This document shows, in pieces, positions 10,721 through 37,105 of a stretch of DNA of 57,308 nucleotides. The notes beneath the pieces are model-generated. The model was not told the origin of the DNA. It ran no database searches and saw only the letters and a program-made list of their open reading frames with translations. Origin of the DNA: Verrucomicrobiota bacterium. GTDB lineage: Bacteria > Verrucomicrobiota > Verrucomicrobiia > Chthoniobacterales > JAFAMB01. The stretch spans positions 1 through 57,308 of the forward strand of contig JAFBAP010000062.1 of assembly GCA_019247695.1 (NCBI GenBank), in the 5' to 3' direction. The first letter of the stretch is position 1. Every line of letters starts with the position of its first letter. The position numbers were made by a program, and so were the translations under genes.

Positions 10721-10765
10721 GTAATCTGTAAATGTTTTCTGCGTTGTCTGCGTGTTCTGCGGATA
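10721..10765. repeat. Mosaic intergenic repeat, C'-B' fragment
   Basis: A short reverse-orientation copy: a degraded taatctgta tract followed by tctgcgttgtctgcgtgtt. It lies in the 10600-11041 gap between two leftward genes. Apart from this copy I see nothing recognisable in that gap. Confidence 0.7.
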
Positions 10766-12320: not shown

Positions 12321-12335
12321 CAGCACCAACGACTC

Positions 12336-12485: not shown

Positions 12486-12535
12486 CAGTCTGTGTAATCT
12501 GTGTAATCTGTGGATGTTTTCTTTCTTTTCTGTGA
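12486..12535. repeat. Mosaic intergenic repeat, C'-B' copy touching the beta-barrel gene stop
   Basis: Two copies of ctgtgtaat are followed by ctgtggatg and a degraded tctttcttttctgtg tract. The copy stops within two bases of the stop codon of the leftward beta-barrel gene. Read outward from that gene, the order is B then C. Confidence 0.75.
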
Positions 12536-12536
12536 A

Positions 12537-14201: not shown

Positions 14202-14379
14202 AAAAGTTCCCTTCCGTGCGAAGCTGAATGGAGGGCGCTGCGCCCTCGCAGCGTCCAAGGAAAAAAAAGTGCTCCTGGTGAGGTAAATGTGTCCTGCGGT
14301 GAACTCCTGGGGCCTGATGTCCCCGGGATGAATTGCAGGTACCCGGCGGGGAACAGTCACGTCCGGGAAAAATCAACAA

Positions 14380-14931: not shown

Positions 14932-15389
14932 TTACAACCCATGTTTCTCTTCCTGCAGGCGAATCAGCTACAGGGCCCTCAGGCCCCCGCCTGTTATCCG
15001 TCGCCACTCAGTGGCGAGGACCAACGCAGGTGAACTAGCGTCACAGATCGCCGGAACGGGCGCATTCTTTAGAGTGTTTATATAGATTGAAAATGGTTTT
15101 TCCCGGCGAGAGTGTTATTAATCGCAATTCTGTTTAAGGAAATCCCGCCGGCTGCCGAATAAGAGGGCTATGGAGATGACACGGAGGTTTTGCCGGGATT
15201 CGCTGCGTTCATTCCCAAACACTGGGCCCTTTCCTCCCAGTGCGCTCGCCGACAGCTTCCTTAAGAATCGTTTTCCGGTTCCTACCCTGCCTGTTGAAAG
15301 AGAAGGGTACAAAAACCCACGCGCCGAGCCGTGGTTTCCCCCGCGCACTAAATGCGTCATGGACGATCAACCAGAACCCACGCCTAACC
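14932..15389. other. Gene-free spacer before the rightward glycan operon
   Basis: About 460 bases without a convincing gene. An AT-rich patch (tagagtgtttatatagattg, near 15072-15091) could hold a promoter for the rightward genes that start at 15390, but no clear -35/-10 pair can be defended. Short open frames here on both strands lack family features. Confidence 0.4.
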
Positions 15390-16754
15390 ATGAGCATTGA
15401 ATGGGCCGTTGCCGCCCTCCTCATCCTGCCCGCGCTCTGCCTCTCAGCCCAGAACTCACCCGCCTTGGTGGATTACGCGATTCTGGTCTACGCATTTAAC
15501 CGCGAGATCCGGCGCGTTGTTGACTGGTATCAGGGAGCTTTCAACCCGTTCTCACCGATCAGCCTGACACCACTGCTTATCATTGCGCTTTTGCTCGCTC
15601 CCTTCCTGAGCCGGCTTCGACGATTGCACGCCATCCCTAAACAGGCGTTTTTCCTCCTCTTTGTTGCCATCGGTTACGGCACTTTCGTCGGACTCGCCCG
15701 CAATGGGTTCGCCGCGATTTACGCCACGGCGGAGTACCTCTCGCCGGTAGCGCTCATGGGTTACGCCGCTGTAAGCCAGGCCGATGAACGGACCTCGGAT
15801 CGCTGGCTCAAGACGGCTGGGTGGGCAACGCTCGCAGCTTGCGCCTACGGGTGGTACCAATACCTGACGATTCCTCCCTGGGACGCCTTTTGGGTGCAGT
15901 CGGTCGGCTTCGTCGGCTACCTGGGCAAACTCGCCCCGACCGAGATGTGCGTCTTTTCTACTTTCGGTGAACGCGGAATATGCGCGGCGTTCCTGGCGCT
16001 CAGCGCCATCCCGATGCTGGTCTCTCGCCGGTGGCGGCTCCTGCTCGGCTGGCCGGAAGGACTTTTCATCCTTTCGGTAATCCTCCTCACGCTGGTCCGC
16101 ACGGGTATTATTCTGGTGGGCTTGGGCGTCATACTCTACCCCATGCTGAACCGCGGCAAGGGAGCCGCTCGACTGGCGTTGGCTCTGGCCAGCCTGGGCG
16201 CCGCCGCCGCGTTCGGCTTTGACCACTTGCCGGGTGCGGAGCGCATCAACGATCGCTTTTCAACGTTGCAAAATATGCGGGAAGACGCCTCCTACCAAGG
16301 TCGTCTGGGCATTGCCCAATACGGAGCACAAATGGCCCTCTCAAATCCGGTCGGATTCGGCATCGGTTTCGCAGGGCTTGGCGGTCGCCTCAACGGGAAG
16401 TCAGGCGATGCAACGGGAGCCATCGCTGTCGACAACGGCTACATTGAAGTGTTGTCTTCTTTGGGTGTCCCCGGGATGTTCTGTCTTACCGTCGCCCTCG
16501 TCATGCTCTGGCGCTACCTGACTATGTGCACACGCTACGGGCTGCGGGACGACTATTTTGCCTTGGCCCGTGGCTTTTTCGTCGTGTTTCTAATCGGCAT
16601 GATGGTCACCAACTTTTTCAATGGGCTGACCGTCATGTGGATTGCCCTTGGCCGCGCGCTCTCCCCGATGATGCTGCACAAACTGCAGATGGCACCGGAA
16701 TACGACTCGCCGGAGCTTCTGGCGGAAGGACTACATCCCCAACGCATCCCGTAA
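15390..16754 (+). CDS. O-antigen ligase/polymerase-like membrane protein (Wzy_C type)
   Basis: The start is taken as the ATG at 15390 (MSIEWAVAALLILPAL), giving 454 residues; an upstream GTG at 15240 would add 50 residues of unlikely sequence. The protein has roughly ten hydrophobic segments. A large loop carries SNPVGFGIGFAGLGGRLNGK and later VDNGYIEVLSSLGVPGMF, the arrangement seen before the last membrane spans in O-antigen ligase-like proteins. Such proteins polymerise or ligate undecaprenyl-linked glycans on the periplasmic side. It heads a rightward group followed by two GT4 genes, and is a good candidate polymerase for this exopolysaccharide. Confidence 0.78.
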   Translation: MSIEWAVAALLILPALCLSAQNSPALVDYAILVYAFNREIRRVVDWYQGAFNPFSPISLTPLLIIALLLAPFLSRLRRLHAIPKQAFFLLFVAIGYGTFVGLARNGFAAIYATAEYLSPVALMGYAAVSQADERTSDRWLKTAGWATLAACAYGWYQYLTIPPWDAFWVQSVGFVGYLGKLAPTEMCVFSTFGERGICAAFLALSAIPMLVSRRWRLLLGWPEGLFILSVILLTLVRTGIILVGLGVILYPMLNRGKGAARLALALASLGAAAAFGFDHLPGAERINDRFSTLQNMREDASYQGRLGIAQYGAQMALSNPVGFGIGFAGLGGRLNGKSGDATGAIAVDNGYIEVLSSLGVPGMFCLTVALVMLWRYLTMCTRYGLRDDYFALARGFFVVFLIGMMVTNFFNGLTVMWIALGRALSPMMLHKLQMAPEYDSPELLAEGLHPQRIP

Positions 16755-16842
16755 TACAGGTTCGAATCCGGACCGCCTCCCCTTCCCGGGACGTTACCAT
16801 ACCCCAGGGGCTCTTTAGGCCGCTAAACCCTGAAAGATTGTT

Positions 16843-18048
16843 ATGCAACGTCTGCAAATCGCGTATGCAATGATCAACACCAATCGGCGCGATGGCAGCG
16901 CCCGCGCGCTCTGCGAGGTGGCGGAGCGCCTGTCGCAAAGGCATGAGGTGCACCTCTTTGCCCGGACCGTGGCGGATTTGGATTTGAGCCATATCCGCTG
17001 GCACCGGATGCCCGGGCCGGGTTGGCCCGCGGTCGCTGACTTTCTAAGTTACCACCTTCTGGCTGACTTTAAAATCAGGGCCGGCGACTTCGACATCATC
17101 CACTCCATCGGCAATAACGCGATGGCGTCGAATGTCATAACGATCCAGAATATCCAACCGGCCAAACGCCCGTTCCTAACTGTCGCAGGAACCCAGGCCA
17201 GCCTCGCGCGCCGGCTGACCCGCTGGCTTTTTCTTAACGTTACCTCGGCGGTGGAAGGTAGAGTTTATTCAAATCGGGCCAGGCACAACCGGCCGATCCC
17301 TTTGTTCCTGCCCGTATCGCAGGGCGTGGACCGCGAACTCAGGACCCATTACGCCATCGGTTCTGCGCCGGTGCGCATCATCCCCAATGCGGCCGACACG
17401 GATGTCTTCAAACCGCTTGCCCCGGAAGAAAAGGCGCGGTGGCGACACGCCAACGGCCTCCGCGAGAAGGATACCGTGCTGGCTTTTGCGGGCGGGGAGT
17501 GGGCCCGCAAAGGCCTCGAGTTCGCCATCGAAGCGCTGGCCCGGATCCCGCGACCCGAAGTGAAGCTGCTCGTTCTCGGGCAGGATGCTGAGGCCTCGCG
17601 TTTTAACGAACTGGCCCGCCGTTTGGGTGTAGGGGATCGAATCGTCTTTGGGGGCTTCCGGCGCGACGTCGCCGAGGGGCTCGGCGCGAGCGACGTGTTC
17701 CTTTTTCCGAGCCGGTACGAAGCCTTCAGCCTCGCCACGATCGAAGCCGCCGCTTGCGGGCTGCCTATCGTTGCTACGCGAATCAACGGGGCCGAGGACT
17801 TCATCACCGCGGGTCACAATGGGTTCTTCATTGAACACAACCCGGAACAAATCGCCCGGACCCTTCTACCCCTGCTGACCTCGCCCGAATTGCGCCAGGA
17901 AATGGGCCGGGCCGCCCGCCGGCGCGTCGAGGAGCATTACACCTGGGACCGCGTGGCGGACCTCACTGAAACCGCCTATTTTGAATATTTGGGGCTGACG
18001 ACCGGCAAAGGGGCGGAACAGTTAGAAACGCTGGCTTTTCATGGCTAA
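16843..18048 (+). CDS. Glycosyltransferase family 4
   Basis: The 401-residue protein begins MQRLQIAYAMINTNRRDGSA with a GT-B N-terminal pattern. It then has VRIIPNAADTDVFKP at the domain junction, VLAFAGGEWARKGLEFAIEA, and the donor site FPSRYEAFSLATIEAAACG with its paired glutamates. These are standard GT4 landmarks. It overlaps the next GT4 gene by eight bases, so the two are translated together, and it follows the polymerase-like gene by about 90 bases. It likely adds a sugar to the repeat unit; its donor is unknown. Confidence 0.9.
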   Translation: MQRLQIAYAMINTNRRDGSARALCEVAERLSQRHEVHLFARTVADLDLSHIRWHRMPGPGWPAVADFLSYHLLADFKIRAGDFDIIHSIGNNAMASNVITIQNIQPAKRPFLTVAGTQASLARRLTRWLFLNVTSAVEGRVYSNRARHNRPIPLFLPVSQGVDRELRTHYAIGSAPVRIIPNAADTDVFKPLAPEEKARWRHANGLREKDTVLAFAGGEWARKGLEFAIEALARIPRPEVKLLVLGQDAEASRFNELARRLGVGDRIVFGGFRRDVAEGLGASDVFLFPSRYEAFSLATIEAAACGLPIVATRINGAEDFITAGHNGFFIEHNPEQIARTLLPLLTSPELRQEMGRAARRRVEEHYTWDRVADLTETAYFEYLGLTTGKGAEQLETLAFHG

Positions 18049-23715: not shown

Positions 23716-25284
23716 TCAGGTACCAACCGTCGCGGTCTTCACCTGGGCCGTCTTCGGCGGCCGGGTCCCTTGGACGGCGTCGCCGGATCGATCCGGTCGC
23801 CTGAAAATGCCGGCAAGCGCAGCACCATTTATCGACAGGAGCATGAGCGTGATCGCCCAAGCGACGATTCTACCGCCGGCCGAATGTTCCCCGAGCCGCA
23901 CCAGCCAAAAATCGGGAAATCGGTTGGCTCCGGAACGAGCCGGGTCCTCGGCGGCCTCACGTGACTTCTGGGAAACAGGCAACGGTTTACCATGGATGCC
24001 AAGCCAAAGGCCATGCCAAACCGCAATTTGTTGGCTGGGAAAACCTACATCTTGGTTCCATGCGGTTTCCGACTCGACGGTTGCCAGATGCCAGTTCACG
24101 AGTACCGGCGGGACGGTTAAAGCCGCAGACGCGATGACGAGCGCAGCAAAGGCCGGGCGAAACCTGGAACGCCAGAGGGCGACGGCGACGGGAGCGACTG
24201 CAACGCCGAAAATGGGCAAGACCGGCAGCAGATAGCGGGGTCCCCAGCCGAAGGCGCCCCAATTCTGCATCCTGGCGATCAGGAGCGAGTACAAAAGCGC
24301 CCCCGGTAAAAACGTCAGCACCAAACCGCGCGTCGGTCTAGGAACATGCTTCCAATAGAACGGCAGCAGAAAGATCAGGAGCAAGACCGGTGAATAAAGG
24401 AAAAGGCCGCGGTTCGGAGCGAAAAAGAGGCCAAAGAGGCCGTGAAAAACATTTCCGTTTAATGCGTTGTTGCCGTTGAGATAAACCGGTGCCGTCGTAC
24501 CTGGGCGCAACGGGTTGCCCATCCGCAGCCAGTTGTAGGCAAAGGTCGGAACGAGCACCGTGAATCCGGTTAGGGCGGACATGAGGTAGTCGGAAAATCG
24601 GACCTTTCGTCGCTGCAAGAACAGGTACACCGCAAACGCGAGGCCGGCGAATATTCCCAGTGAGTAGCGGAAGGTGCAGGCCAGTGCGAAGGCGGCTGCG
24701 GCGAGGATCACGTAGAGCCGAGGACGCGGCACGAGCGGGATCTTGCCGCAAAGGTAGAGCAAGGCGCACATGCAGACGCACCCGCCCATAACGTCCCACG
24801 CCGTCTTGCTGTAAGGCCAGTACATCGTCGTCATTACAAATCCCGCGGACAACAGGAAGGCTGTGCGCGTTGAAAACGTCAGCGCGAAAAGCTGATACAC
24901 CAGCAGCGCGCCGATGGCGCTGAAAATCGCATAGGTAAACGCGACGCCGATCCGGGTGAGCACAGGGGGAGATGCAATCTTGTCAGCCGCAGTGCCCTTC
25001 GACAGACAGGATCCCAGAAGAGCGGCGGGCAGCATCAATACCGTATTGCCGAGGTCGTGGGGCTCGTAATAGCGATGATCCGGGCCTTGGATCCATGCCG
25101 GTATTTCTTCCGGCGAGCTCAGGGTGCCCTTATTTACGATTAACAATGCGACTCTCAACTGCTCAGTTGCGTCGCCGCTGGACATCCGGCCGGATGCGAA
25201 CAGCAATAAGAAGCTGACAACAAAAGCGGTGACTGCCAGGGCCGGACGGCTCGTGAGGGCAGGTTTGTAAAAGCGTTGATGCAT
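23716..25284 (-). CDS. GT-C-like polytopic membrane protein, paralogue 1
   Basis: The start is set at the ATG at 25284 (MHQRFYKPALTSRP), giving 522 residues. After TM1, the loop ASGRMSSGDATEQLRVAL carries an Asp in the position where GT-C glycosyltransferases keep a catalytic acid. About ten to eleven spans follow, with the conserved PTFAYNWLRMGNPLRPGTTA in a central loop and a C-terminal segment with RFPDFWLVRLGE. The protein at 32929-34548 shares all these blocks. GT-C enzymes take sugars from polyprenyl-phosphate donors. The gene follows the UbiA-like donor-synthesis gene by 73 bases in the same direction, which supports this role; family placement is otherwise by pattern only. Confidence 0.72.
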   Translation of the reverse strand: MHQRFYKPALTSRPALAVTAFVVSFLLLFASGRMSSGDATEQLRVALLIVNKGTLSSPEEIPAWIQGPDHRYYEPHDLGNTVLMLPAALLGSCLSKGTAADKIASPPVLTRIGVAFTYAIFSAIGALLVYQLFALTFSTRTAFLLSAGFVMTTMYWPYSKTAWDVMGGCVCMCALLYLCGKIPLVPRPRLYVILAAAAFALACTFRYSLGIFAGLAFAVYLFLQRRKVRFSDYLMSALTGFTVLVPTFAYNWLRMGNPLRPGTTAPVYLNGNNALNGNVFHGLFGLFFAPNRGLFLYSPVLLLIFLLPFYWKHVPRPTRGLVLTFLPGALLYSLLIARMQNWGAFGWGPRYLLPVLPIFGVAVAPVAVALWRSRFRPAFAALVIASAALTVPPVLVNWHLATVESETAWNQDVGFPSQQIAVWHGLWLGIHGKPLPVSQKSREAAEDPARSGANRFPDFWLVRLGEHSAGGRIVAWAITLMLLSINGAALAGIFRRPDRSGDAVQGTRPPKTAQVKTATVGT

Positions 25285-25357
25285 TTCTGGATCGAATATT
25301 TCTGGGTCGTTCTCGTAACGATGGCAAAATGCCCGGAACTCCGGAACTTGGTCCGGG

Positions 25358-26818
25358 TTAAAAGACCGTGGCGAAGACCAGGACCGCAGCGAGAAGCAAG
25401 GCAACCACGTAGCTCCGCGCGTCCCTGAGGGCGAAAACGATCGGGTCATGATGCACGTCGTTGCGCCCGGTCAGTATCCAGAGTCTCGCAAACCAATAGA
25501 GAAGAATCGGGCAGGCGATGAGAAGGAGCTGAGGAGATCTGTACAGGGCCTGGACCTCGGGCGAACTGACGTACAAGACCAGGATCAACGTCGACAAGAT
25601 TCCTGACGACACGCCCAGCATCGCAATAATCAGGAGATCAGTGGGGCAATACGCCCGCCCGGAGTTTCCGGCCATGGACTTACCCATGGCGTTGATCTCC
25701 GTGTACCGTTTCACGAAGGCCAGGCTTGTGAATAGGAACATTGAGAACGCCAGCAGCCAATGCGACAAGACGATGTGTGCGGTGATTCCTCCGGCCAGCA
25801 CGCGTGCACTATAGAGCAGGGCGAGGCAGATCACGTCGACGATCAACTTGCGTTTCAGGTAATGTGAATAGGCAAACGTGATGCCGTAGTAGGCGAAAAG
25901 GCAGAGAAAGAAGCCGGGTGAGACCGATGCAGACAGGGCCAACCCCCCGGCCAGGAGAGCTATGGAAGCGCCGAGCGCCTTTCCGATGGGCAGGTCGCCG
26001 TTGGCGATCGGACGATGCTTCTTTTTCGGGTGCGCACGATCGTTCTCAAGGTCGACGATGTCGTTGGTGAGATAGACACTGGACGCAACCAGGCAAAACG
26101 CGATGAATGAGACGGCGACGGCCAGGTCTGTACGGAAATCGAATATCCGGTGTGCCGCGATCAACGGGACAAAAAGCAGGATGTTTTTGGCCCATTGGTG
26201 CGGCCGGCAAGCCCTCAACAGGCTTCGAAACAGTGAAAGTCTTTTGACGTTTACCGTTGCAAGCTTCGGGACCGCCCGCAAGACGTGTTTCTGCGGGTTG
26301 ACCGCGTAGGCGCGCCGCGCCTGTGCCCAGACGGGGATGTCAGCGGTAGAATCTCCAACGTAGTCAAACCCGGATGCTGAGAATCGTTTGTTTAACTCGT
26401 CAACCTTGGCGCTGCCTTTGAGGTTCCGGGTGGCGTTGCTGGCGATGACCATGTCGAAACAGCCGACGTGGCGGGCAACCTCTTCCGCGATGGCAGCGTT
26501 CGCGGCAGTGGCAAGAACAAGCTTGCGCCCGCTCGACTTTTCTGTCCGCAGCCAGTCGATGAGGGCGTGGTTATAGGGCAACAGCGCGATATTCGGCAGG
26601 TTCTCCTGCGCCAAGCGCTCCTTGAGGCAGGCCCGTCCCTTGACCAGCGCCGCCAGGATCAGAAAAACGTTGGTCGGCCGTTTCAACACCCACCGCAAAC
26701 ATGATTCGATGAGGGTGTCGGTCCGGCATAGCGTGCCGTCCAGATCCACGCACAGAGGGGCGGACGTGAGATCCACCGGTTCCTCCGATGCAGACGATTG
26801 CGAGATGGTTCCAGCCAT
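25358..26818 (-). CDS. HAD-UbiA fusion, decaprenyl-phosphate phosphoribosyltransferase-like
   Basis: The 486-residue product has two parts. Residues about 20-190 are a HAD phosphatase domain (LCVDLDGTLCRTDTLIES with the DxDGT nucleophile, and YVGDSTADIPVWAQA as the C-terminal acid motif). Residues about 205-486 are a UbiA prenyltransferase with SLLRACRPHQWAKNILLFVP, YLTNDIVDLENDRAHP and then HRPIANG, and later AFVKRYTEIN. The KRxxE second motif is that of the DPPR synthase group rather than of menaquinone or heme enzymes. Those enzymes join polyprenyl phosphate to phosphoribosyl pyrophosphate. The HAD part could remove the 5-phosphate. It precedes a GT-C-like gene. Confidence 0.85.
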   Translation of the reverse strand: MAGTISQSSASEEPVDLTSAPLCVDLDGTLCRTDTLIESCLRWVLKRPTNVFLILAALVKGRACLKERLAQENLPNIALLPYNHALIDWLRTEKSSGRKLVLATAANAAIAEEVARHVGCFDMVIASNATRNLKGSAKVDELNKRFSASGFDYVGDSTADIPVWAQARRAYAVNPQKHVLRAVPKLATVNVKRLSLFRSLLRACRPHQWAKNILLFVPLIAAHRIFDFRTDLAVAVSFIAFCLVASSVYLTNDIVDLENDRAHPKKKHRPIANGDLPIGKALGASIALLAGGLALSASVSPGFFLCLFAYYGITFAYSHYLKRKLIVDVICLALLYSARVLAGGITAHIVLSHWLLAFSMFLFTSLAFVKRYTEINAMGKSMAGNSGRAYCPTDLLIIAMLGVSSGILSTLILVLYVSSPEVQALYRSPQLLLIACPILLYWFARLWILTGRNDVHHDPIVFALRDARSYVVALLLAAVLVFATVF

Positions 26819-27306
26819 TCAAAAACCCCGGTTCGAGAGATCCGTGCCGGCAGGGTACGAGAAGGTCCTGCCGCAACCCGTCCTTGTTCGTGACATGCAA
26901 CGGATGAACGGCAGGCCCAATGTAAACTTTAGCAAGGCCGCGGCATTTACTGATTTGGGACTGGACCGAAGGGGGGTGTAAAGTGAACCGCTTGGGATCG
27001 AGCGGCTCGCCGGAAATGCCCTCCGGATGCGCCGGTGTCGCGCCGTCCGCAGCGGCTGAAATTTGAGAGAGATAACCCTCAAGGAGGCGGAGAATACTCC
27101 GAATGTTATGACTTGAATTCTCTCCACGGAGCCCACGGGATGAGCAAGGACCAGCACACGGCTACACATCTCCGAAAGCAAGGCCACGGCGGCGCAGCAA
27201 GTACACGGATGTCGTATCACCACCTCAGCCAAGGTCCGAATCTCGGCATGACAGCTTAAGGGGAAACCCCGGGGTCTTCAGGATACAAAGATGATTGGCA
27301 AGACTA
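26819..27306. other. Divergent spacer between the UbiA and acyltransferase genes
   Basis: About 490 bases separate two divergently read genes and should contain both promoters. Open frames here are not gene-like. I could not identify a defensible promoter pair, operator or hairpin. Confidence 0.4.
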
Positions 27307-28521
27307 ATGACTATAAAAAATAATTTGGATGCGACCCTGAAAAGCCATAATGCCGGCCGCATTCCCAGTCTGGACGGCTTACGCGCCGTTGCAATTCTGA
27401 TGGTCATCCTCGGCCACGGTTCGTATTCTTTGCCTAAATTCTTGTCTCCGGCACTGGCCTTTGCCGGCAATGGCCAGCTGGGTGTCAACGTCTTCTTCGC
27501 CTTGAGTGGATATTTGATTTTCCAGCTCAGCGTTCGCGAAAGGGAAACAACGGGAGAGTTTGATTGGAAGCAATTTTACGTCCGACGCGTTCTGAGGATA
27601 TTCCCCTGCTTTTACTTTTATCTTGCCGTAATCGGAGTCCTGATCAGCTTTGGAGCGCTGACGCTTACCGGCCCGATGATAGGATCGGCGGCCACGTTCA
27701 GTCTCAACTACCGTTGCCTGTGGGATCACTGGGTTGGCGATTCGAACTATTCGGTCATCGGGCATTATTGGACGTTGGCTCTGGAGGAGCAGTTTTATCT
27801 GATGTGGCCGCTTCTCATGGTTTTATCGGTGAGGCGGAAGTTGGTTCCGGCGTTGGTGGCCGCTATACTGCTCGCCCCGCTTCTGCGGGTGATTTCTTAC
27901 TTCTTGGCGCCGGGCCTGCGTGGCCAGATCGGAATGATGTTCCATACCGGCTTCGACTCGATCGCAGTGGGCGTTTTGCTTGGGGAACTGCTTAGGAGGA
28001 CTCGCCCGAAAGCATGCCTTGAAAGGCTGGCTCGCAATCCATGGATCGTAGGGACGACGATCGTGTTCCTAGTATTCCTGTCGCCCCTTCTGACCGCAAG
28101 GTTCAAAGGAATGTATTCGCTCGCCATTGGCAAAACGCTCGAACTATCGTGCCTTGGTATTCTGATTACCGCTGCGGTTTCGCAACCGGGAACGTTTCTG
28201 TTTCGGTTTCTGAACTGGCGCCCCGTCGCATACATTGGTGTCCTATCGTACAGTCTGTATGTATGGAACAATCTATTCCTAAACGGCGAGGGGCACTGGA
28301 TGGTAAACACCTTCCCGTTAAACTTTGTATGTGTCGCCGGAACGGCGGCTGCCTCACATTATCTGATCGAGAAGCCATTCCTTAAGCTGAAGAGTCGTTT
28401 TCACAGGTCTTCGAAACCCGGCATTAGCCCGGTCAGCACACGAGGCTTACCGAGCAACGCGCCGGCCATCCCGACGCTTACGCAGGCGGAAGTGGGATCT
28501 GCCACCGGTGGCCGGCGTTGA
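27307..28521 (+). CDS. Acyltransferase 3 family membrane protein
   Basis: The ATG at 27307 gives 404 residues; a TTG four codons upstream is an alternative. Landmarks are IPSLDGLRAVAILMVILGHG, LGVNVFFALSGYLIFQLSVR, FYVRRVLRIFPCFYFYL, YWTLALEEQFYLMWPLL and SYSLYVWNNLFLN, ending SHYLIEKPFLKLKSRF and a soluble tail. The gene precedes the FkbH/ACP operon by 174 bases in the same direction, so it is the likely membrane transferase for the acyl group that operon may make. Base composition is more AT-rich than that of nearby genes. Confidence 0.88.
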   Translation: MTIKNNLDATLKSHNAGRIPSLDGLRAVAILMVILGHGSYSLPKFLSPALAFAGNGQLGVNVFFALSGYLIFQLSVRERETTGEFDWKQFYVRRVLRIFPCFYFYLAVIGVLISFGALTLTGPMIGSAATFSLNYRCLWDHWVGDSNYSVIGHYWTLALEEQFYLMWPLLMVLSVRRKLVPALVAAILLAPLLRVISYFLAPGLRGQIGMMFHTGFDSIAVGVLLGELLRRTRPKACLERLARNPWIVGTTIVFLVFLSPLLTARFKGMYSLAIGKTLELSCLGILITAAVSQPGTFLFRFLNWRPVAYIGVLSYSLYVWNNLFLNGEGHWMVNTFPLNFVCVAGTAAASHYLIEKPFLKLKSRFHRSSKPGISPVSTRGLPSNAPAIPTLTQAEVGSATGGRR

Positions 28522-28695: not shown

Positions 28696-30552
28696 ATGGT
28701 ACTGGGCAACCAGACATCTTCTGCGAAGGATCTGATGAGCAAGGACAAGCGAGAAATCCTGGATTGGCTGAAGGCGGATCCCTCTCCTGCGCGCTACGTC
28801 TCGGCCGCGCGCCGCCTCGACGCATTGGCGGATGACGATGCACCCGAGATTCGAGTCGCCATCCTCCGGAACGCCACGATAGACCCGGTCGTTCCTTACA
28901 TTAAGGCACAGTTCCACGACGCCGGGCTCAGGCCACAGATTTACCTCGGGAACTACGACAACGTTCATCAAGACGTTTTCGACAGGGGTAGTCCGCTTTT
29001 TGAGTTCCGGCCGGACGTCATCATCCTGGCTATGCGCCTGCATACCCTGCAGCCGCGCCTGGTGTTCAACTATGCCGCACTGTCGCCGGAAGAGGGTGAA
29101 TGCCATGCAGCTGAGGCGCTCGAGCGCGTTGCCGGCATCCTGCGAGCCATTCGGGAACGGTCTCCTGCGCTCATCCTCGCCCACACCTTTGAACGGCCGA
29201 TCTATCCGGCGTATGGCGTGCTTGACCCGCATTGGGCGCATGGACAGCAAAACACCACTTTGCGCCTCAACGCGCGTCTAGGGGAACAGGTCACGGCCCT
29301 TGGCGGTGCGTTCCTTGTCGATCTGGATGGGATTCTTTCCCGAGTCGGTTACGAACAGGGGTTGGATGACCGGTACTGGCACATCAGCCGGGCACCCTAC
29401 AAGCCTCCGGTTCTGATTCGGCTCGCCGATCAGTACGTACGGTTTGCCGTCGCCCTCAGAGGCAAGAATCGAAAATGCCTGGTTCTGGATTGTGACAACA
29501 CGCTTTGGGGCGGCGTCATCGGTGAGAACGGCATCAATGGGATCCGGCTGGGCAACACCTATCCGGGATCAGCGTACGTGGAATTTCAGGCTGCGATCCT
29601 CGACCTGTACCATCGAGGGGTGTTACTGGCGCCCAACAGCAAAAACAACGAGAAGGACGCCTTGGAGGTTTTCGAACGACACCCATCCTCGCTGTTGAAA
29701 CCCGAACACTTCGTGGCAAAACGAATCAACTGGCAGGACAAGGCTTTAAACCCGCGCGAGATCGCAGCGGACCTCAACATCGGCATAGACAGCCTGGTGT
29801 TTGTCGATGATAACCCGGTCGAATGCGCTTACGTCCGGGAATGCCTGCCGGAAGTCGAGGTCGTTCAGCTTCCGTCTGACCCCACCGGATACCGGCGCCT
29901 GCTGCAGAGCCTGAACTATTTCGATTCGCTCACCCTGACGCAGGAAGACCGCCGGCGAAGCAGCATGTACCAGACCGAGCAGCGCCGGAGACAGGTTCAG
30001 ACCGAGAGCAAAACGATAGAAGATTACCTAGGCTCGCTGGAGATGACCATCACCATCGGCCATGCTGACGCTTTCACCATTCCACGGGTTGCGCAACTCA
30101 CCCAGAAAACCAACCAGTTCAATCTCACGACCCGGCGCTACTCGGAAGAGGATATCCGCGCGCTGGCGATAAATCCTTCGACAGACCTTTTTCATGCAAG
30201 TTTGAAGGATCGTTTCGACGATAACGGCGTCATCGCGGCCGCGATTGTTCGCTATGAGGGTGACGCCGCCCGTATTGACACGTTGTTGATGAGTTGCCGC
30301 GTGATCGGCAGAGGCGTCGAACAGGTCATCCTGGCGCACCTCGAAAAAGCCGCAAGAGCGCGGGGGTGTTGCCGACTGGAAGGCGAGTACATCCCGACAC
30401 CAAAAAACGGATTGGTAAGGGACCTGTTCAGAAACAACGGTTTTGTATCGGTACCTGACGATGCGCAAGGTTTATGGCTTCGGAACTTGTCCGAGCCGCC
30501 GTTAACACCTCCTCCATGGTTCGGGGAGATCTGTATCAAGAAACAAGATTAA
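28696..30552 (+). CDS. FkbH-like protein (HAD-IIIC phosphatase family)
   Basis: The 618-residue product has an N-terminal SGNH-like region (VAILRNATIDPVVPYIKAQF, about 50-250). The HAD-IIIC core begins at residue 258 with CLVLDCDNTLWGGVIGENGI, followed by LAPNSKNNEKDALEVF and SLVFVDDNPVECAYVRECLP. A C-terminal GNAT-like domain has RVIGRGVEQVILAHL. FkbH proteins use 1,3-bisphosphoglycerate to load a glyceryl unit onto an acyl carrier protein. The next gene, six bases away, is an acyl carrier protein, which fits exactly. Here the loaded acyl unit is likely destined for glycan modification rather than polyketide synthesis, since no polyketide synthase is nearby. Confidence 0.92.
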   Translation: MVLGNQTSSAKDLMSKDKREILDWLKADPSPARYVSAARRLDALADDDAPEIRVAILRNATIDPVVPYIKAQFHDAGLRPQIYLGNYDNVHQDVFDRGSPLFEFRPDVIILAMRLHTLQPRLVFNYAALSPEEGECHAAEALERVAGILRAIRERSPALILAHTFERPIYPAYGVLDPHWAHGQQNTTLRLNARLGEQVTALGGAFLVDLDGILSRVGYEQGLDDRYWHISRAPYKPPVLIRLADQYVRFAVALRGKNRKCLVLDCDNTLWGGVIGENGINGIRLGNTYPGSAYVEFQAAILDLYHRGVLLAPNSKNNEKDALEVFERHPSSLLKPEHFVAKRINWQDKALNPREIAADLNIGIDSLVFVDDNPVECAYVRECLPEVEVVQLPSDPTGYRRLLQSLNYFDSLTLTQEDRRRSSMYQTEQRRRQVQTESKTIEDYLGSLEMTITIGHADAFTIPRVAQLTQKTNQFNLTTRRYSEEDIRALAINPSTDLFHASLKDRFDDNGVIAAAIVRYEGDAARIDTLLMSCRVIGRGVEQVILAHLEKAARARGCCRLEGEYIPTPKNGLVRDLFRNNGFVSVPDDAQGLWLRNLSEPPLTPPPWFGEICIKKQD

Positions 30553-30557
30553 ATTCG

Positions 30558-30791
30558 ATGAGTGTGGATCAACGTCTCAGCAAAGTTTTTTCAGAAGTTT
30601 TCGAACTGTCACCCGAGGAAGTTTCCGATGAGGCCTCGCCAAAAACCATCGAGCGATGGGACTCGATGAATTCCATGGTCCTGGCGATGGCGCTGGAGGA
30701 AGAATTCGAGGTTCAGTTTTCTGATCAGGAGCTGATACGGATGAACAGCTACCGGTCAATCCGGGAAACGCTGGCGCAGAAAGGATCGTAA
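30558..30791 (+). CDS. Acyl carrier protein
   Basis: The 77-residue protein starts at the ATG at 30558, six bases after the FkbH stop; longer frames overlap that gene and are not ACP-like. It has the four-helix ACP pattern with the phosphopantetheine attachment serine in ERWDSMNSMVLAMALEEEF (Asp-Ser at the start of helix II) and SPEEVSDEAS in the loop before it. The sequence is of the stand-alone discrete type used with FkbH or in sugar acylation, not the fatty-acid AcpP (no DSLDTVE). It is the second gene of the five-gene operon. Confidence 0.92.
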   Translation: MSVDQRLSKVFSEVFELSPEEVSDEASPKTIERWDSMNSMVLAMALEEEFEVQFSDQELIRMNSYRSIRETLAQKGS

Positions 30792-30813
30792 GCAGCCTGA
30801 AAGGAGTCGAAGG

Positions 30814-31266
30814 GTGCTGAAACCGGGGCGCATTTGGTATTGGAGTTGCAAGGCATACCGGAAACGGATGATTACGGTCGCCAAAGCCTTGAAGCTCCTG
30901 AATTACATACTCTTCAAATGTTTGCTTCCCTTTGAAGCGGAGCTCGAAGGAGAAGTAGACATGCGGCATTGGGCCCTGGGGGTAGTCGTCCATCCGCAGG
31001 TCCGAATCGGCAAGAACGTGGTTCTTTATCATCAAACGGCGTTGGCGGCGCAGACGTGGATCGGATCGCCCCATCGAATCATCGTTGAAGATGACGTTAC
31101 GATCGGGGTCGGTGCAATCGTCGTCGGCAGCAATTTACGCAGCCTCAGGATTGGCAAAGGCGCGACGATTGCGCCCGGATCGGTCGTGGTCCGGGACGTT
31201 GAGCCGGGGCAGACGGTGGTCGCAACACCGGCGCGTCCTGTTCCCACCGCGGCCTGCAGCGCCTGA
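30814..31266 (+). CDS. Left-handed beta-helix (hexapeptide repeat) acyltransferase, CysE-like
   Basis: The 150-residue product starts at a GTG at 30814 with AAAGGAG nine bases upstream. A short N-terminal helical region is followed by hexapeptide repeats (VVVHPQVRIGKNVVLYHQTA, then RIIVEDDVTIGVGAIVVGS and LRIGKGATIAPGSVVVRDV), the pattern of serine acetyltransferase and related glycan acyltransferases. The catalytic His is probably the one in LYHQT. It follows the ACP gene by 22 bases and ends three bases before the next gene. It may transfer the ACP- or CoA-borne acyl group to a soluble sugar nucleotide or a small intermediate. Confidence 0.87.
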   Translation: MLKPGRIWYWSCKAYRKRMITVAKALKLLNYILFKCLLPFEAELEGEVDMRHWALGVVVHPQVRIGKNVVLYHQTALAAQTWIGSPHRIIVEDDVTIGVGAIVVGSNLRSLRIGKGATIAPGSVVVRDVEPGQTVVATPARPVPTAACSA

Positions 31267-31269
31267 GCC

Positions 31270-32889
31270 ATGACCCGAGAAATCCTGGAGCGCAAGCGCT
31301 TCACCATTGAGGACCAGGAGCGTTTTGCGCGGTTGTCCGGAGATAGAAACCCGCTGCATATGGACCCCGTTGCCGCGAGGCGGACCCAGGCGGGTGCGCC
31401 GGTCGTGCATGGGATCCACACGCTGCTGTGGTTCCTGGACGTGCTGAGCCGGAAGCATCCTGATCTACCCCCGTTCGGAACGGTGAACGTCCGTTTCGAG
31501 AAGCTTCTTTACGTCGGCGAGACCGCTGAGGCGATCGTGACGCATTGTGATGCATCGGGTGTGCGGGCGGAGGTAACGGCGGCGGGCACGCTCGTCGTAC
31601 GCGTGACCGGAACTTTCGGAAAACCCAAACCGCCGAACCCGACGGTGGCGGATACGGAAATGCCGGTTCAACGTCCCCTGCTTCCGGCCGAGCTTTCTCT
31701 GAAGGAAATAGCCGGCAGAACCGGCCGGGTCGGCTTTGCCGGATCGCCAGGGGAGATTGCGCGCGCGTTTCCCGACGCGGCCCGTGCCTGGGGCGAGCGG
31801 CGTGTCGCCGCATTCGCCTGCTGCACTTACCTGGTTGGGATGGTTTGCCCCGGATTACATTCCATCTTTGGCGGGCTCGTGCTGACCAGGTGCGAAGAGG
31901 CGGATGAACGGGATGCGATCAGCTTCCGCGTTACGCTCAGCGATCCGCGGTTTCGGCTGGTCCGGATGGAGATCTCGGGCGGCGGGCTCGCCGGCAATTT
32001 AGAAACTTTTGTGCGCCAACCGCCTGTCGCACAAGCCGGCATGGCCGAACTCGCCGGACGCATCACTCCCGGCGAGTTTGCCGGCACGACGGCGCTCATC
32101 GTCGGCGGCTCCCGAGGTCTCGGTGAATTAACAGCCAAAATCCTGGCCGCAGGCGGCGCACAGGTCCTCATAACCTACGCGGCCGGTCAGGCGGACACCG
32201 AACGGGTGCGGGATGGAATGACCACGCAGGGAGGAAACTGCGAGATGCTGCACTACGACGTCCGAGCCCCGGCCGGGGCGCAGTTGGTGAACCTCGCCAA
32301 GGAGCCGGCCGAACTTTACTATTTTGCGACTCCAGCGATCTTCAGGCGCAAAACCGGCGTTTTCGCGCAGGATAAATTCAACGACTTCTTTTTGTTTTAC
32401 GTCACCGGGTTTTATGACCTTTGCCAGATGCTTTGTCGACGACGGTCCCAAGGGATCTCAGCGTTTTATCCCTCCTCAACGGCGGTCGAAACGCGGCCCG
32501 CAGGGATGACCGAGTACGCCATGGTCAAGGCTGCCGGTGAGATCTTGTGCACCGACATGATGGCCTACGAAACTCGGATCCACATCACGATCAAACGTTT
32601 GCCCCGGCTGCCTACCGATCAGACGGCGACGCTGATGCAAGCCGAAGCCGCGGATCCGGTGGAGGTAATAGTACCCATCGTTCGCGAAGTGCACGCGCGC
32701 TCTGATGCGAGGAGTAAGCAGCGCCCGGTGAACGCGGCTACCTCGTCGGCTTCGCAATCCGTGGTATTCGGTTCCTGCGACGCCTCGCCTGAGGAGTTGC
32801 CGACCAGGGATCGGCTCGACGCTGGTGACCCGGCTGACGACGAAATACGATGTCTGGCACATGACACGAGGCGGGATACGCTCGGCTAG
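31270..32889 (+). CDS. Double-hotdog (MaoC-like) and SDR ketoreductase fusion
   Basis: The 539-residue product has three parts. Residues about 1-125 form a MaoC-type hotdog with the hydratase motif RLSGDRNPLHMDP (catalytic Asp and His present). Residues about 140-255 form a second, degenerate hotdog (GLHSIFGGLVLTRCEEA). Residues about 262-480 form a short-chain dehydrogenase with TALIVGGSRGLGELTAK, SSTAV and the YAMVK active-site Tyr and Lys. The combination is expected to make or consume an (R)-3-hydroxyacyl thioester. After residue 480 there is a 60-residue tail with no homology pattern, possibly from a lost stop or frameshift. It is fourth in the FkbH operon. Confidence 0.85.
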   Translation: MTREILERKRFTIEDQERFARLSGDRNPLHMDPVAARRTQAGAPVVHGIHTLLWFLDVLSRKHPDLPPFGTVNVRFEKLLYVGETAEAIVTHCDASGVRAEVTAAGTLVVRVTGTFGKPKPPNPTVADTEMPVQRPLLPAELSLKEIAGRTGRVGFAGSPGEIARAFPDAARAWGERRVAAFACCTYLVGMVCPGLHSIFGGLVLTRCEEADERDAISFRVTLSDPRFRLVRMEISGGGLAGNLETFVRQPPVAQAGMAELAGRITPGEFAGTTALIVGGSRGLGELTAKILAAGGAQVLITYAAGQADTERVRDGMTTQGGNCEMLHYDVRAPAGAQLVNLAKEPAELYYFATPAIFRRKTGVFAQDKFNDFFLFYVTGFYDLCQMLCRRRSQGISAFYPSSTAVETRPAGMTEYAMVKAAGEILCTDMMAYETRIHITIKRLPRLPTDQTATLMQAEAADPVEVIVPIVREVHARSDARSKQRPVNAATSSASQSVVFGSCDASPEELPTRDRLDAGDPADDEIRCLAHDTRRDTLG

Positions 32890-32928
32890 ACACGGATCTC
32901 CCGCTTATCACAAACTTAATTGAACTCT

Positions 32929-34548
32929 ATGTCTTACCTTACTAATCAAACAAGTCGGATGGCTCGGTCGCGACTGGTTATCCCCGTGTTCTTCATTAGT
33001 TTCTTTCTTCTCTCCGCATCCGGTCGGATGTCCAGCGGTGATGCCCTAAATCAGTTACGGGTGGCGCTCTTGATGCTGACCGAGCGCGCTGTGAGCCCAA
33101 CGGGTGAACACGAGGCCTGGATTCGAGAAAAGGGGGAATGGTTTCAAGGCCAAAACGGTCACTTCTATGAGCCTCATGAACTTGGAAACACCGTTGTCAT
33201 GTTGCCCGCCGCTCTCCTGGGGCTGTCTGCGCCTGCCCCGCATTACTCGACCGGCTCGACGCAGGACGTGATCATCAATCCGCCCGTCGCTGCGAAGATA
33301 GCTGCGGCGTTATCCTACGCCGTCTTCAGCGCGGTAGGCGCAAGCTTTATATTTTTCCTCTTCGGCCGGTTCTTTTCGAAACGTGCAGCGTTTTTCCTAA
33401 CCGTCGGCTTTGTGACCACGACGCTTTACTGGACCTACAGCAAGACCGCTTTAGATGTCATGGGTGGGAGCATCTGCGTGTGCGGTCTGCTCTATTTCTG
33501 CACTATGATTCCGGTGTCATCGCGTCCTCGATTGAACGCAATCTGCGCTTCCGTATTCTTCGGGCTGACCTGCCTGTTTCGGTATGCACTAGCTCCATTC
33601 CTTGGCCTTGCTTTTGTCACCTATTTGATCCTGCATCGGCGCAGGCTTCGTTTGATAGATTATACTTTATGTGCATTGACGGGATTCGTTATTTTACTGC
33701 CAACTTTCGCTTATAATTGGTTGAGAATGGGTAACCCCTTACGTCCAGGTACAACCGCACCCTATTATCTAGCCGAATTTAATGCGATGACCGGGAACAT
33801 TCTAGGAGGGACGCTTGGACTGCTCTTTTCGCCAAATCTCGGGCTCATGTTCCACTCGCCAGTTTTGCTGTTGATCTTTCTCGTGCCTCTGTTTTGGAAA
33901 TCGTTTCCGTTGCAGATTCGACAACTGACGATGTGTTTCCTCCCGGCGGCCATTGGCTATGTATTCGTGATCGCTAAGATGAAGCATTGGTCGGGGCTGA
34001 TGGGCGTGGGGCCCCGCTATTTGCTTCCGATCCTACCGATTATGGCTGTTGCGATCGCGCCCATCGCGCTGACTCTCTGGCGATCAAAGTGGCGGTTCCT
34101 ACTGATCGCCTTGGTGACCACATCGGCGATTCTCGCCGTTGCACCGGTCCTCGTAAACTGGCAGGTTGCGGTTGCCGAGTCTCCGAATGCTATGTCTCAG
34201 GATGCTCGATATCCAATCCAGCAAATGGCCATGTTGAGAGGACTCTGGCTTGGTCTTCACGGAAAACCCTTGCCGACGTCAGGTTTGTCGAAAGCAGTCA
34301 CCGAGGATCCGGTATATTCGAGTGTAACTCGTTTCCCTGATCTCTGGCTCGCACGTCTGGCGGAGCAATCGATAGGCATGAAGGTTCTCTCGGCGGTAAC
34401 GACGCTGGTGCTCGTAGGGATGAATATAAGCACTTTGATCTGCATCCTGGTGGTCACGAGAGACGGTGAAAAGATCAGATTCGAGAGGTTTCATAGCGAA
34501 GATACGGGCTGCGGCGTCGATGCGACAAAAACCGTTCTTGACGTTTGA
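32929..34548 (+). CDS. GT-C-like polytopic membrane protein, paralogue 2
   Basis: The ATG at 32929 gives 539 residues (a TTG three codons upstream is possible). The protein aligns by eye along its length with that at 23716-25284: LLSASGRMSSGDALNQLRVA, FYEPHELGNTVVMLPAALLG, PTFAYNWLRMGNPLRPGTTA, GVGPRYLLPILPIMAVAIAP and RFPDLWLARLAE. It has about ten to eleven spans and an Asp in the first extracytoplasmic loop. It is the last gene of the rightward FkbH operon, 39 bases after the hotdog/SDR gene. The coding sequence is visibly more AT-rich than that of paralogue 1, so the two probably did not arise by recent duplication in place. Confidence 0.72.
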   Translation: MSYLTNQTSRMARSRLVIPVFFISFFLLSASGRMSSGDALNQLRVALLMLTERAVSPTGEHEAWIREKGEWFQGQNGHFYEPHELGNTVVMLPAALLGLSAPAPHYSTGSTQDVIINPPVAAKIAAALSYAVFSAVGASFIFFLFGRFFSKRAAFFLTVGFVTTTLYWTYSKTALDVMGGSICVCGLLYFCTMIPVSSRPRLNAICASVFFGLTCLFRYALAPFLGLAFVTYLILHRRRLRLIDYTLCALTGFVILLPTFAYNWLRMGNPLRPGTTAPYYLAEFNAMTGNILGGTLGLLFSPNLGLMFHSPVLLLIFLVPLFWKSFPLQIRQLTMCFLPAAIGYVFVIAKMKHWSGLMGVGPRYLLPILPIMAVAIAPIALTLWRSKWRFLLIALVTTSAILAVAPVLVNWQVAVAESPNAMSQDARYPIQQMAMLRGLWLGLHGKPLPTSGLSKAVTEDPVYSSVTRFPDLWLARLAEQSIGMKVLSAVTTLVLVGMNISTLICILVVTRDGEKIRFERFHSEDTGCGVDATKTVLDV

Positions 34549-34656: not shown

Positions 34657-36687
34657 TCAGGTCCCACCATCGTCGTCGATGATCAATAGGTATGGATAAT
34701 CGGCGGCGACGGCCGTCAGGGTAATGGCATTTCCGGAGGCGGAATCCACGGTCACCGGCACGTCACGATCGTTAAGCGGGTCATAGGCCCGGGCACGGAT
34801 ACTAGCAGCGTTCACCCCCTTTAAACTGATGGTGAACACCTCCGGGGCAAGGGCTTGCGTCAGATCGCGCGTCATCACGTAGTAAGGGATGACGAAACGA
34901 CCGGCATTGACCTCGAAAGGCAGGATCGCAAGCACGTCACGGTCATAGAGCGGAGGGTGCGCGGCGGTGCCGTCCCCGTCGAACTGGCGATGGTCATGCG
35001 CGTCGCTGATCGAGGTCACCTGCAGGGGCCGGGTGGCCATCAGGGCGGAATCCAACCCTTGGCTCATGAGGTCGACGATCCGCTTGGTTACCATCAAAGC
35101 CGGTGACGTGTAGGAAGAGTCGTCGTCAGGATAGGCTTTGTGGCTTTTTGCGTAATCGATGAAGTTATCCTGCACGATCCCGTACTCAAGGTCGCCGGCC
35201 CCCGAACTGAAAAGCGTCAGGTTTTTAACCCCTTTCTGCAGGTAAAAGCAGAGCGTACGCGCCGTTGCCTTGGCTTTGAGGGTCAGCGCTGTGGGGGCGT
35301 CAACAACGCCGTACCCATGCGGATCATACCCCGTCTCAGTGATCCACGTATCGCATTCGACCACGCGTCCATCTGCGACCCGGGCCTGACGGCCATGGGC
35401 GTCGGTCGCAATGCGGGTGGTGAGCGGCGACATGTCCCGGATGAGGTGCTCGGTCTGGATCGCCGTCCCGCCGTATTCGGGAAAACGGCAGCGGTAACCG
35501 GGCACCCAACCCCGGTTTTCAAGTTGCAATTGCGCGTTCACGCTGCTCCTGCCGTCGTCGTCCACCGGAAAGCTCCGGTCGCGCGGGTACGGATGCTTGC
35601 AGATCGCGCCGATCCCGACCGGTTGATTGGATGCGCTCGGCCACGGGATCGTGCTCGCAAAGCCATCGGCGACCTGCACGCCGGAAAAAGCGCCCGGTGC
35701 TTGCCGGGCGCAATCGACGGTCGCCTGCAGAAGGTTACCCCAGACCACGTCCTGGTTGTACTGGTAAGGTGCCGGCCGGTAGTACGCATTGATGTACAGG
35801 AAGTTCGAGCCGAACGTCAGCTCGTTCCAGATCTCCAGGTCGAAGCCTTTGTCGCCGCGGTTATCAGCCGTGCCAAGCGCCTCACCGGCATAGCGGGCGA
35901 CCGTCTCGACGTAGCGCCTCCACCCGTTAAGGGTCTCTTCGCCTTCGGGGGTGCCGGGCGGCGAGAACGGGCGATACTTCAGGGTAGCCATGCTCACACG
36001 GGTATTGGCGGGAATCGCTTTCGGCAGCGGCTTGGATAGGGTCACCGTGTGGCCGTCAATTGCCGTGATGAGGGCCTCGGCCGCCCAGTAGCCGGTTAGA
36101 TTGCTTAAGCCGCTTCGCCCGAGGACCAGGCCCGTGGTGCCGTCGAGTTGTACGCTCGTGGCCCCTGCGGCCGCCTCGGCTGTGACGGTACGATAGAAAT
36201 AGCGTGCGGGGCAAGGGGCGCCCTGATTGGCGTTCAACAGGATGATCGGGCGGATACCCCATTTTTTGCATGCCTGCAGGGCTGCGCGCAGCGAAGGAGA
36301 GGTTAGAGACTCGTCCTCATAGTTGAGGTTACCCCAACCAACCTCAATCCGGGTGAGCTTGATGCCGTGCCTGGCCAGATGCTCAAGGACAAGGTCCGCG
36401 TTATCGGGGCTGCTTAGGACCACGCCGAGCCCGTTGAGGAAACGGTTGGCCGGGACGGTTTCGAGGTAGGCGCGCCAGGGTTGAATCCAGTGGGAGCGGG
36501 CGCCAAACGGAATGTCGAGCTGATAATTGGGGTCGGTGTAGGCTGAGGCCAACGTACCGGAATGCATCGGGCACGCCGTTGCGGAGAATAGAGTAGCGAT
36601 AAGGCGGCTAATGCGCAGACGCCGGCGAAGTGGCGCCTGTGCCAAGCGGGGAGCGGCCGGACCGGCAATCGATTGTTGTGGGACCAT
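34657..36687 (-). CDS. Secreted clan GH-A-like glycoside hydrolase, paralogue 1
   Basis: The start at 36687 gives 676 residues; upstream codons in this frame belong to a decayed PIN toxin gene. A long positively charged signal region (RRRLRISRLIATLFSATACP) is followed by a TIM-barrel-like domain with IKLTRIEVGWGNLNY, FDLEIWNELTFGSNFLY (acid/base Glu of the WNE motif) and CDTWITETGYDPHGYG (candidate nucleophile). Between about residues 170 and 260 a beta-rich insert starts AAAGATSVQLDGTTGLVLG. A C-terminal beta domain ends DYPYLLIIDDDGG. It may trim or release the exopolysaccharide. No exact GH family can be assigned. Its paralogue is at 48548-50593. Confidence 0.75.
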   Translation of the reverse strand: MVPQQSIAGPAAPRLAQAPLRRRLRISRLIATLFSATACPMHSGTLASAYTDPNYQLDIPFGARSHWIQPWRAYLETVPANRFLNGLGVVLSSPDNADLVLEHLARHGIKLTRIEVGWGNLNYEDESLTSPSLRAALQACKKWGIRPIILLNANQGAPCPARYFYRTVTAEAAAGATSVQLDGTTGLVLGRSGLSNLTGYWAAEALITAIDGHTVTLSKPLPKAIPANTRVSMATLKYRPFSPPGTPEGEETLNGWRRYVETVARYAGEALGTADNRGDKGFDLEIWNELTFGSNFLYINAYYRPAPYQYNQDVVWGNLLQATVDCARQAPGAFSGVQVADGFASTIPWPSASNQPVGIGAICKHPYPRDRSFPVDDDGRSSVNAQLQLENRGWVPGYRCRFPEYGGTAIQTEHLIRDMSPLTTRIATDAHGRQARVADGRVVECDTWITETGYDPHGYGVVDAPTALTLKAKATARTLCFYLQKGVKNLTLFSSGAGDLEYGIVQDNFIDYAKSHKAYPDDDSSYTSPALMVTKRIVDLMSQGLDSALMATRPLQVTSISDAHDHRQFDGDGTAAHPPLYDRDVLAILPFEVNAGRFVIPYYVMTRDLTQALAPEVFTISLKGVNAASIRARAYDPLNDRDVPVTVDSASGNAITLTAVAADYPYLLIIDDDGGT

Positions 36688-36756
36688 ATTCGTCAGTGGC
36701 TTGGAACGCAGGTGGAAGCTCAAAGTCTGCCGTACATGGCCCCTGAAGCCACGGCT

Positions 36757-37105
36757 GGCGTTGACGGCGAGAGCCGTTGCAATGACGTGATCGTCATTCG
36801 GGTCCCGGCAGGCCGGCCCGATTTCAGGCAAGCGGACCAGGGAACACATTCCCGGCTGCTTCCAGATCGGCGCACCACGCCACGACCGCCGTCTCATCAT
36901 GGCCGTAGGCCTTCCGCAGCCGGGGCGAGAGCAGCGCGGTTTTGGTTTCTTCGAGTAGGAGCGGTGACAGGTGCATGACGAATGCGCCTTGGCCCGCCAG
37001 CTTCAATATCCACCCCGGAACGCTTCGGGGAAACAGGAAGGCGCTCACCAGCACCGAGGCGTCAACGACGGCGCTTGCGGGCATGGGAAGCTCTGGCTTC
37101 GTCAA
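36757..37105 (-). pseudogene. Frameshifted PIN-domain toxin gene
   Basis: The first frame (37105 to 36824) encodes SAVVDASVLVSAFLFP and LSPLLLEETKTALLSPRLRK, a normal PIN N-terminal half, then stops after LEAAGNVFPGPLA. The continuation IGPACRDPNDDHVIATALAV, which carries the conserved acidic residues of the PIN C-terminal half, is in another frame, so one frameshift lies near 36840-36855. The last strands of the fold are missing or garbled before the hydrolase gene. The start overlaps the AbrB antitoxin gene. The toxin is probably inactive unless frameshifting or a sequencing error is involved. Confidence 0.75.

Follow-up and report, generated by a model that had tools for sequence, protein, structure and literature searches.

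A four-gene operon with a hotdog-SDR fusion as a probable source of lactyl-ACP for a polysaccharide pathway in Verrucomicrobiota

Gene content and organization of the operon

The DNA analyzed here (the window) comprises 57,308 nucleotides and represents the entire contig C62 of a Verrucomicrobiota bacterium genome assembly (5.19 Mb, 191 contigs, 96.7% complete). Positions 28696-32889 of its forward strand carry four genes, arranged head to tail and with all open reading frames (ORFs) open, that encode an FkbH protein, an acyl carrier protein (ACP), a hexapeptide transferase, and a fusion of a double-hotdog domain with a short-chain dehydrogenase/reductase (SDR). The intergenic gaps are 5, 22, and 3 bases, where the first value assumes that the ACP gene starts at ATG 30558. 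An initial annotation of this DNA had described the gene order, the short gaps, and the intactness of the key motifs, and all three are confirmed by the ORFs, by profile matches, and by alignments. The operon probably serves as a lactyl-ACP factory for a polysaccharide pathway.

The first gene (28696-30552, + strand) encodes a glyceryl transferase/phosphatase of the FkbH type (HAD-IIIC) that matches TIGR01686 at 309.8 bits (cut-off 146.65). Its residues D265, D267, T269, D371, D372, and C534 are invariant among the eight FkbH proteins aligned, and the gene is single-copy in the genome, where the MaoC family has two copies. The ACP gene (30558-30791, + strand; PF00550, 25.8 bits, cut-off 20.8) likely begins 5 bases past the FkbH stop codon, and its product carries the phosphopantetheine serine, Ser36, in a WDSM motif that retains this serine in 8/8 aligned ACPs. 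The earlier proposal that FkbH loads an ACP is supported. The third gene (30814-31266, + strand) encodes a left-handed beta-helix acyltransferase of the hexapeptide family (PF00132, 28.1 bits, cut-off 27), which also matches EpsC/CysE-like profiles at scores below their cut-offs. The fusion gene specifies a double-hotdog (MaoC-type) domain (31270-32055, + strand; PF01575, 56.3 bits), with D25, N27, P28, and H30 in its first hotdog, and behind it an SDR domain (32065-32709, + strand; PF00106, 32.2 bits) with the sequence GGSRGLG and residues S402, Y416, and K420. The remainder of this gene (32710-32889, + strand) encodes a C-terminal tail that is absent from relatives and mostly predicted to be disordered.

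Membrane protein genes lie on both sides of the operon. An acyltransferase 3 (AT3) membrane protein gene (27295-28521, + strand; PF01757, 107.9 bits), correctly named in the initial annotation, ends 174 bases upstream of the FkbH gene. AT3 is a possible partner for O-acyl transfer, with membership in the operon suggested by distance alone. The same annotation had placed GT-C genes in the flanks, a name that is plausible and unproven for the polytopic membrane protein at 32920-34548 (+ strand). This putative LA_3751/LA_3752-family glycosyltransferase begins 30 bases downstream of the fusion gene and matches NF047440 (LA3751_2_3_fam) at 59.9 bits, under the cut-off of 200. It has a paralogue at 23716-25449, such that LA_3751-like putative glycosyltransferases flank the operon on either side. 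Farther downstream, positions 34657-36900 and 48548-50626 encode similar proteins of 690-750 amino acids that are apparently paralogues, the first of which has no Pfam match.

A profile search found no ketosynthase on contig C62; the genome-wide matches to PF00109 (nine) and PF08545 (two) are all elsewhere. This agrees with the original description of an acyl-ACP operon that has no synthase nearby.

Recurrence in other genomes

Relatives of the fusion were sought by scanning contigs with an alignment of three proteins and with the patterns LVGM[VE]CPG and YYFATP[AKF]I, which yielded 95 relatives, of which the best 80 were kept. Pattern-based sampling of this kind is biased toward the fusion type found on the glycan side. 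Together with L034, L038, L039, and the window, these make up 84 loci, or 83 distinct loci given that L038 and L089 are one contig with identical rows. Neighboring genes were assigned by longest ORF, with no gene finder, and the neighbor lists are approximate. Going by the titles of the records, the relatives include Acidobacteria, Alpha-, Beta-, and Gammaproteobacteria, Desulfobacterales, Nitrospirae, Planctomycetes, Chlorobiaceae, Chloroflexi, Gemmatimonadota, Omnitrophota, Myxococcales, Mycobacterium, Lentisphaerales, and Akkermansia. Two of the loci come from cultured bacteria, L046 from Terracidiphilus gabretensis S55 and L098 from Brevundimonas lenta. Many of the relatives are contigs of metagenome-assembled genomes, for which individual taxon labels may be wrong.

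Co-occurrence of the gene families reaches beyond this one genome, as the operon hypothesis of the initial annotation demands. FkbH is encoded in the fetched flank of 63 of the 84 fusion loci (62/83 when distinct loci are counted), co-directional with the fusion in 49 of these 63 and at a median distance of 519 bases. The background frequency of FkbH in the phylum of the window is 56 in 387 genomes, and the co-occurrence of FkbH with the fusion exceeds chance. An ACP is present in the flanks of 61 of the 84 loci. The acyltransferase position varies, being taken by MBOAT (28 loci), hexapeptide (10), AT3 (7), or WcbI (4) proteins, and the flanks also include polysaccharide deacetylase (14) and ketosynthase III (3) genes. 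Recurrent neighbors are genes for sugar-nucleotide enzymes, deacetylases, glycosyltransferases, and membrane acyltransferases, and the linkage to glycan genes that had been proposed is supported.

The full-length fusion is rare in the phylum itself, where it is present in only 3 of the 387 genomes (G000, G069, and G180), with the G069 copy split into two ORFs. A total of 166/387 genomes match the fusion, and most were rejected as full relatives because nearly all match by the SDR alone. A further genome, G216, carries consecutive genes (L040:3396-7292, C200) for a hexapeptide protein, a different fusion composed of one hotdog and a FabG-like SDR, an FkbH, and an ACP-like protein. Next to these come two genes that resemble those of a glycosyltransferase and a methyltransferase, and then a gene for a polysaccharide deacetylase. 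Because this second, unlike fusion has the same partners, it lends further support to a functional link among them.

Several variants of the gene set were also observed. Three loci (L060, L070, and L080) supplement the cassette with a ketosynthase III (PF08545 and PF08541 matches in L060), a FabG-like SDR, and a hexapeptide protein whose L060 version is PglD-like; genes for a DegT aminotransferase and for a sugar transferase are present as well in L060 and L070. Perhaps the three-carbon unit is extended in these loci before its transfer to an amino sugar. In L038, L039, L077, L092, L096, and L111, FkbH is paired with a divergent second type of ACP of about 100 amino acids that has an LDS motif. 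This type was overlooked by our first search, and the Pfam PP-binding profile gives no match to those scanned (L038 and L111); L039 has an ordinary ACP as well. Loci of the Akkermansia type (L039 at 5087-17067, L118, and L120) unite the fusion with MBOAT, FkbH, and ACP genes, and L039 additionally encodes a VOC protein, an SDR, and an AMP ligase and has a fusion gene split into two ORFs. Finally, the FkbH domains of G083, G237, G240, G243, G277, G319, and G320, all genomes of the window's phylum, reside within open frames of 3,485-4,220 residues that are probably polyketide synthase (PKS) proteins.

Fold and conserved residues of the fusion protein

AlphaFold models were generated for the whole fusion (mean pLDDT, the per-residue model score, of 89.5) and for its first 262 residues (mean pLDDT 96.2), the latter because a fold search with the whole model returned SDRs only. 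The separate N-domain model aligns over its full length with the double-hotdog hydratases and dehydratases 2bi0, 4e3e, 5i7n, and 8hgn (mesaconyl-CoA hydratase), with Z scores of 18.1 to 18.4 and root-mean-square deviations of 3.1 to 3.3 over 222-232 residues. The C-domain aligns with SDRs (Z about 24). The double-hotdog fold and the D-x-N-P-x-H motif together place the N-domain in the Hydratase 2/MaoC group, and the Rossmann GxxxGxG motif and S-Y-K triad place the C-domain in the SDR superfamily.

Conservation was assessed across 83 aligned glycan-side rows, with L039 excluded because of its split gene, and is given for rows that have a letter at the position. D25 and H30 are present in 81/81 such rows (two of the 83 are gapped), and S402, Y416, and K420 are present in 82/82, 81/82, and 82/82, respectively. 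The window fusion also has 63 residues beyond position 476, where none of the remaining 82 rows has more than 18, and its residues 496-539 have pLDDT values under 50 and are predicted to be disordered. This tail may have arisen by loss of a stop codon or by a frame change close to where the protein would naturally terminate.

Natural-product relatives

The initial annotation could put no name to the combination with a hotdog-SDR fusion. We find that the fusion can be placed, as its relatives occur both in loading modules of PKSs and within the lankacidin gene cluster. A tblastn search of plasmids with the fusion returned 15 records, six of which cover at least 80% of the query. The remaining records, mostly SDR-only matches, were set aside, although one of them, from S. 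griseofuscus, later resurfaced as the lankacidin locus. Two records, P0005 (Ensifer canadensis pT173a) and P0006 (Streptomyces anulatus plasmid), encode single chains in the order MaoC, SDR, FkbH, ACP, ketosynthase, with FkbH domain scores of 278.8 and 285.9 bits, respectively. These loading modules hold all the functions of the operon except the acyltransferase in one chain, with the same order within the fusion, and differ in that a ketosynthase follows.

Streptomyces griseofuscus pSGRIFU1 and Streptomyces sp. NBC_01224 have separate hotdog-SDR, ACP, and FkbH genes beside PKS genes. The pSGRIFU1 locus is the lankacidin cluster because its amine oxidase matches LkcE (1019 bits to 6f32, full length), and the fusion, ACP, and FkbH (282 bits) genes are located about 12-18 kb from lkcE. 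The lankacidin starter genes resemble those of the window in having the fusion, the ACP, and FkbH as separate genes. They differ in that they feed a nonribosomal peptide synthetase/PKS with pyruvoyl/lactoyl, and no glycan acyltransferase is seen beside them. The window and lankacidin fusions are 26% identical over 493 columns (E 3e-17), and hhalign relates them with a probability of 99.9% over 443 columns. A quick tree, which excluded four short sequences (L063, L067, L079, and L115) and whose long branches leave its details unsure, separates the five natural-product rows (support 84) from the 79 glycan-side rows (98).

The glycerate-derived starter unit of FR901464 is reportedly the subject of He 2014, with Zhang 2011 alongside. 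Judged by the titles of these works, the chemistry proposed there is the same as that which we propose for the window operon.

The lankacidin starter has been proposed in the literature to be lactoyl-ACP made from 1,3-bisphosphoglycerate. PMC7901079 lists D-lactate-ACP as the outcome of FkbH loading. The force of D-lactate loading as a standard label for FkbH is weakened, however, because its source in that paper is the study of FR901464, which has a glycerate starter in its title. PMC4552970 judges an FkbH module of oocydin (DH-MT-FkbH-ACP) to be non-functional, which urges caution in deducing function from architecture. On bryostatin loading, nothing useful was found in the literature excerpts available.

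Two other known operons likewise use FkbH and a dedicated ACP to make glyceryl-ACP, namely those for tetronate glycerate utilization and for methoxymalonyl-ACP (PMC7489565). The next step in the former is a FabH-like condensation and in the latter involves two dehydrogenases and an O-methyltransferase, and neither has the hotdog and SDR. Both were considered and rejected as identities for the window operon. A Pfam scan of 10 proteins that the window encodes in this region revealed no pair of dehydrogenases or O-methyltransferase, and no FabH-like ketosynthase is encoded on the contig (neither of the two PF08545 matches in the genome is on C62).

A proposed route to lactyl-ACP

From these genes, their intact catalytic residues, their folds, their recurrence and homology, and their occurrence beside or inside polyketide systems, we infer the reactions, donor, lactyl product, acceptor, and stereochemistry of the following route. 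FkbH would take the glyceryl group from 1,3-bisphosphoglycerate, remove the phosphate, and load the dedicated ACP. The first hotdog would then eliminate water from glyceryl-ACP (the C3 hydroxyl with the C2 hydrogen) to give enol-pyruvyl/pyruvyl-ACP, and the fused SDR would use NAD(P)H to reduce the alpha-ketone and give lactyl-ACP. Last, an acyltransferase, presumably the hexapeptide protein and perhaps AT3 with it or in its place, would attach lactyl to a sugar, whether in an exopolysaccharide or in the precursor of one. Transfer of lactyl to a sugar is a proposed role of the hexapeptide protein, whose fold family makes it a putative user of an acyl-ACP donor.

Because the leaving hydroxyl of glyceryl-ACP is at C3, beta to the thioester, a hotdog of the hydratase-2 type could carry out the elimination. 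This mechanism would account for the fusion of a dehydratase with a reductase and for the presence of FkbH and ACP next to it, and it would make a ketosynthase unnecessary. The components expected of such a route are present, including an FkbH with its HAD motif, a dedicated ACP, intact dehydratase and ketoreductase residues, and homology to natural-product fusions. Moreover, a transferase position that varies while the other three remain constant is expected if one donor serves different acceptors. The single-chain PKS architecture, the lankacidin relatives, and the co-occurrence with FkbH favor lactyl as the product. Regarding the acyl group, the earlier suggestion of glyceryl holds for the first intermediate, but the final group is more likely to be lactyl than either glyceryl or a fatty 3-hydroxyacyl group.

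Several observations weigh against this route. FkbH is missing from the flank in 21 of the 84 loci; the whole genome or record has matches in 15 of these 21 (13 above the cut-off), leaving 6/84 that lack FkbH altogether, though some contigs are short or incomplete. No ACP was found in 5 of the 63 FkbH loci (58/63 have one). The hexapeptide and WcbI families are putative ACP users here. Because the lankacidin and PKS counterparts are only distantly similar (low identity) and group separately in the tree, the substrate may differ, and glycan-side fusions have YYFATP (window residues 350-355) where natural-product versions keep the usual SDR motif of the N-A-G type. In addition, searches of open-licence papers, of which those on glycan lactylation brought up mostly reviews of protein lactylation, did not yield an instance of lactyl groups made via the FkbH route on a polysaccharide.

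Alternative explanations

The alternative that survives best, which we nonetheless consider unlikely, is that FkbH and ACP supply the glycan with glyceryl, plain or modified, and that the fusion has another role, for example in proofreading or in a side branch. FkbH is indeed common without the fusion (56/387 genomes, versus three with the full-length fusion and a fourth, G216, with the different one). Also, a passage of PMC7099621 describes a gene with an fkbH domain, cj1302, in the flagellar glycan region of C. jejuni, where dimethylglyceric acid-pseudaminic acid is found. That system is like the window in having FkbH in a glycan locus, and there dimethylglyceric acid glycans are made. However, the fusion is nearly always accompanied by FkbH and the reverse is untrue, which fits a downstream enzyme pair. 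The catalytic residues of the fusion are conserved, and its best-documented natural-product relative resides in a cluster with a proposed lactoyl-ACP starter.

It is improbable that lactyl-ACP primes the synthesis of a small secondary metabolite or of a lipid and that the genes are in a polysaccharide locus by chance. The relatives discussed in the literature are natural-product systems, and the ketosynthase III of L060, L070, and L080 could extend the unit, but the contig of the window has no synthase and the recurrent neighbors are the sugar-nucleotide, deacetylase, glycosyltransferase, and membrane acyltransferase genes noted above.

Least probable of all is the other option of the initial annotation, processing by the fusion of 3-hydroxyacyl chains from fatty acid synthesis, with a hydroxybutyryl-type group placed on the glycan. 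This leaves FkbH unexplained, contig C62 has no ketosynthase, and PKS loading modules that contain FkbH show the same domain order and the same set of partners. In favor of this option, both fusion domains match enzymes acting on (R)-3-hydroxyacyl and 3-oxoacyl thioesters, and 3/84 loci also hold a ketosynthase III.

Implications

FkbH chemistry and lactyl-ACP starters are already known in polyketides. We found no description of an FkbH/ACP/hotdog-SDR cassette in polysaccharide loci in the open-licence literature, which is not proof of absence. With one exception, a cannabis study, the papers on named acyl-ACPs dealt with natural products, going by titles and abstracts. If lactyl-ACP is the product, the prediction from sequence is that glycans carry lactyl esters or amides for which lactyl-ACP is the donor and 1,3-bisphosphoglycerate the carbon source. 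This prediction spans many phyla and includes soil Acidobacteriota, Alphaproteobacteria, and Akkermansia. The presence of the fusion would also offer a way to tell FkbH loci that use lactyl from those that use glyceryl.

We consider the matter evenly poised as to whether, in many phyla, surface polysaccharides are lactylated at the expense of glycolysis by an FkbH/ACP/hotdog-SDR factory whose partner acyltransferase (MBOAT, hexapeptide, WcbI, or AT3) can be exchanged. If this were true, lactyl decoration of exopolysaccharides would be widespread and would derive from 1,3-bisphosphoglycerate rather than from free lactate. The findings suggest a single building block common to the loading modules of polyketides and the acylation cassettes of glycans.

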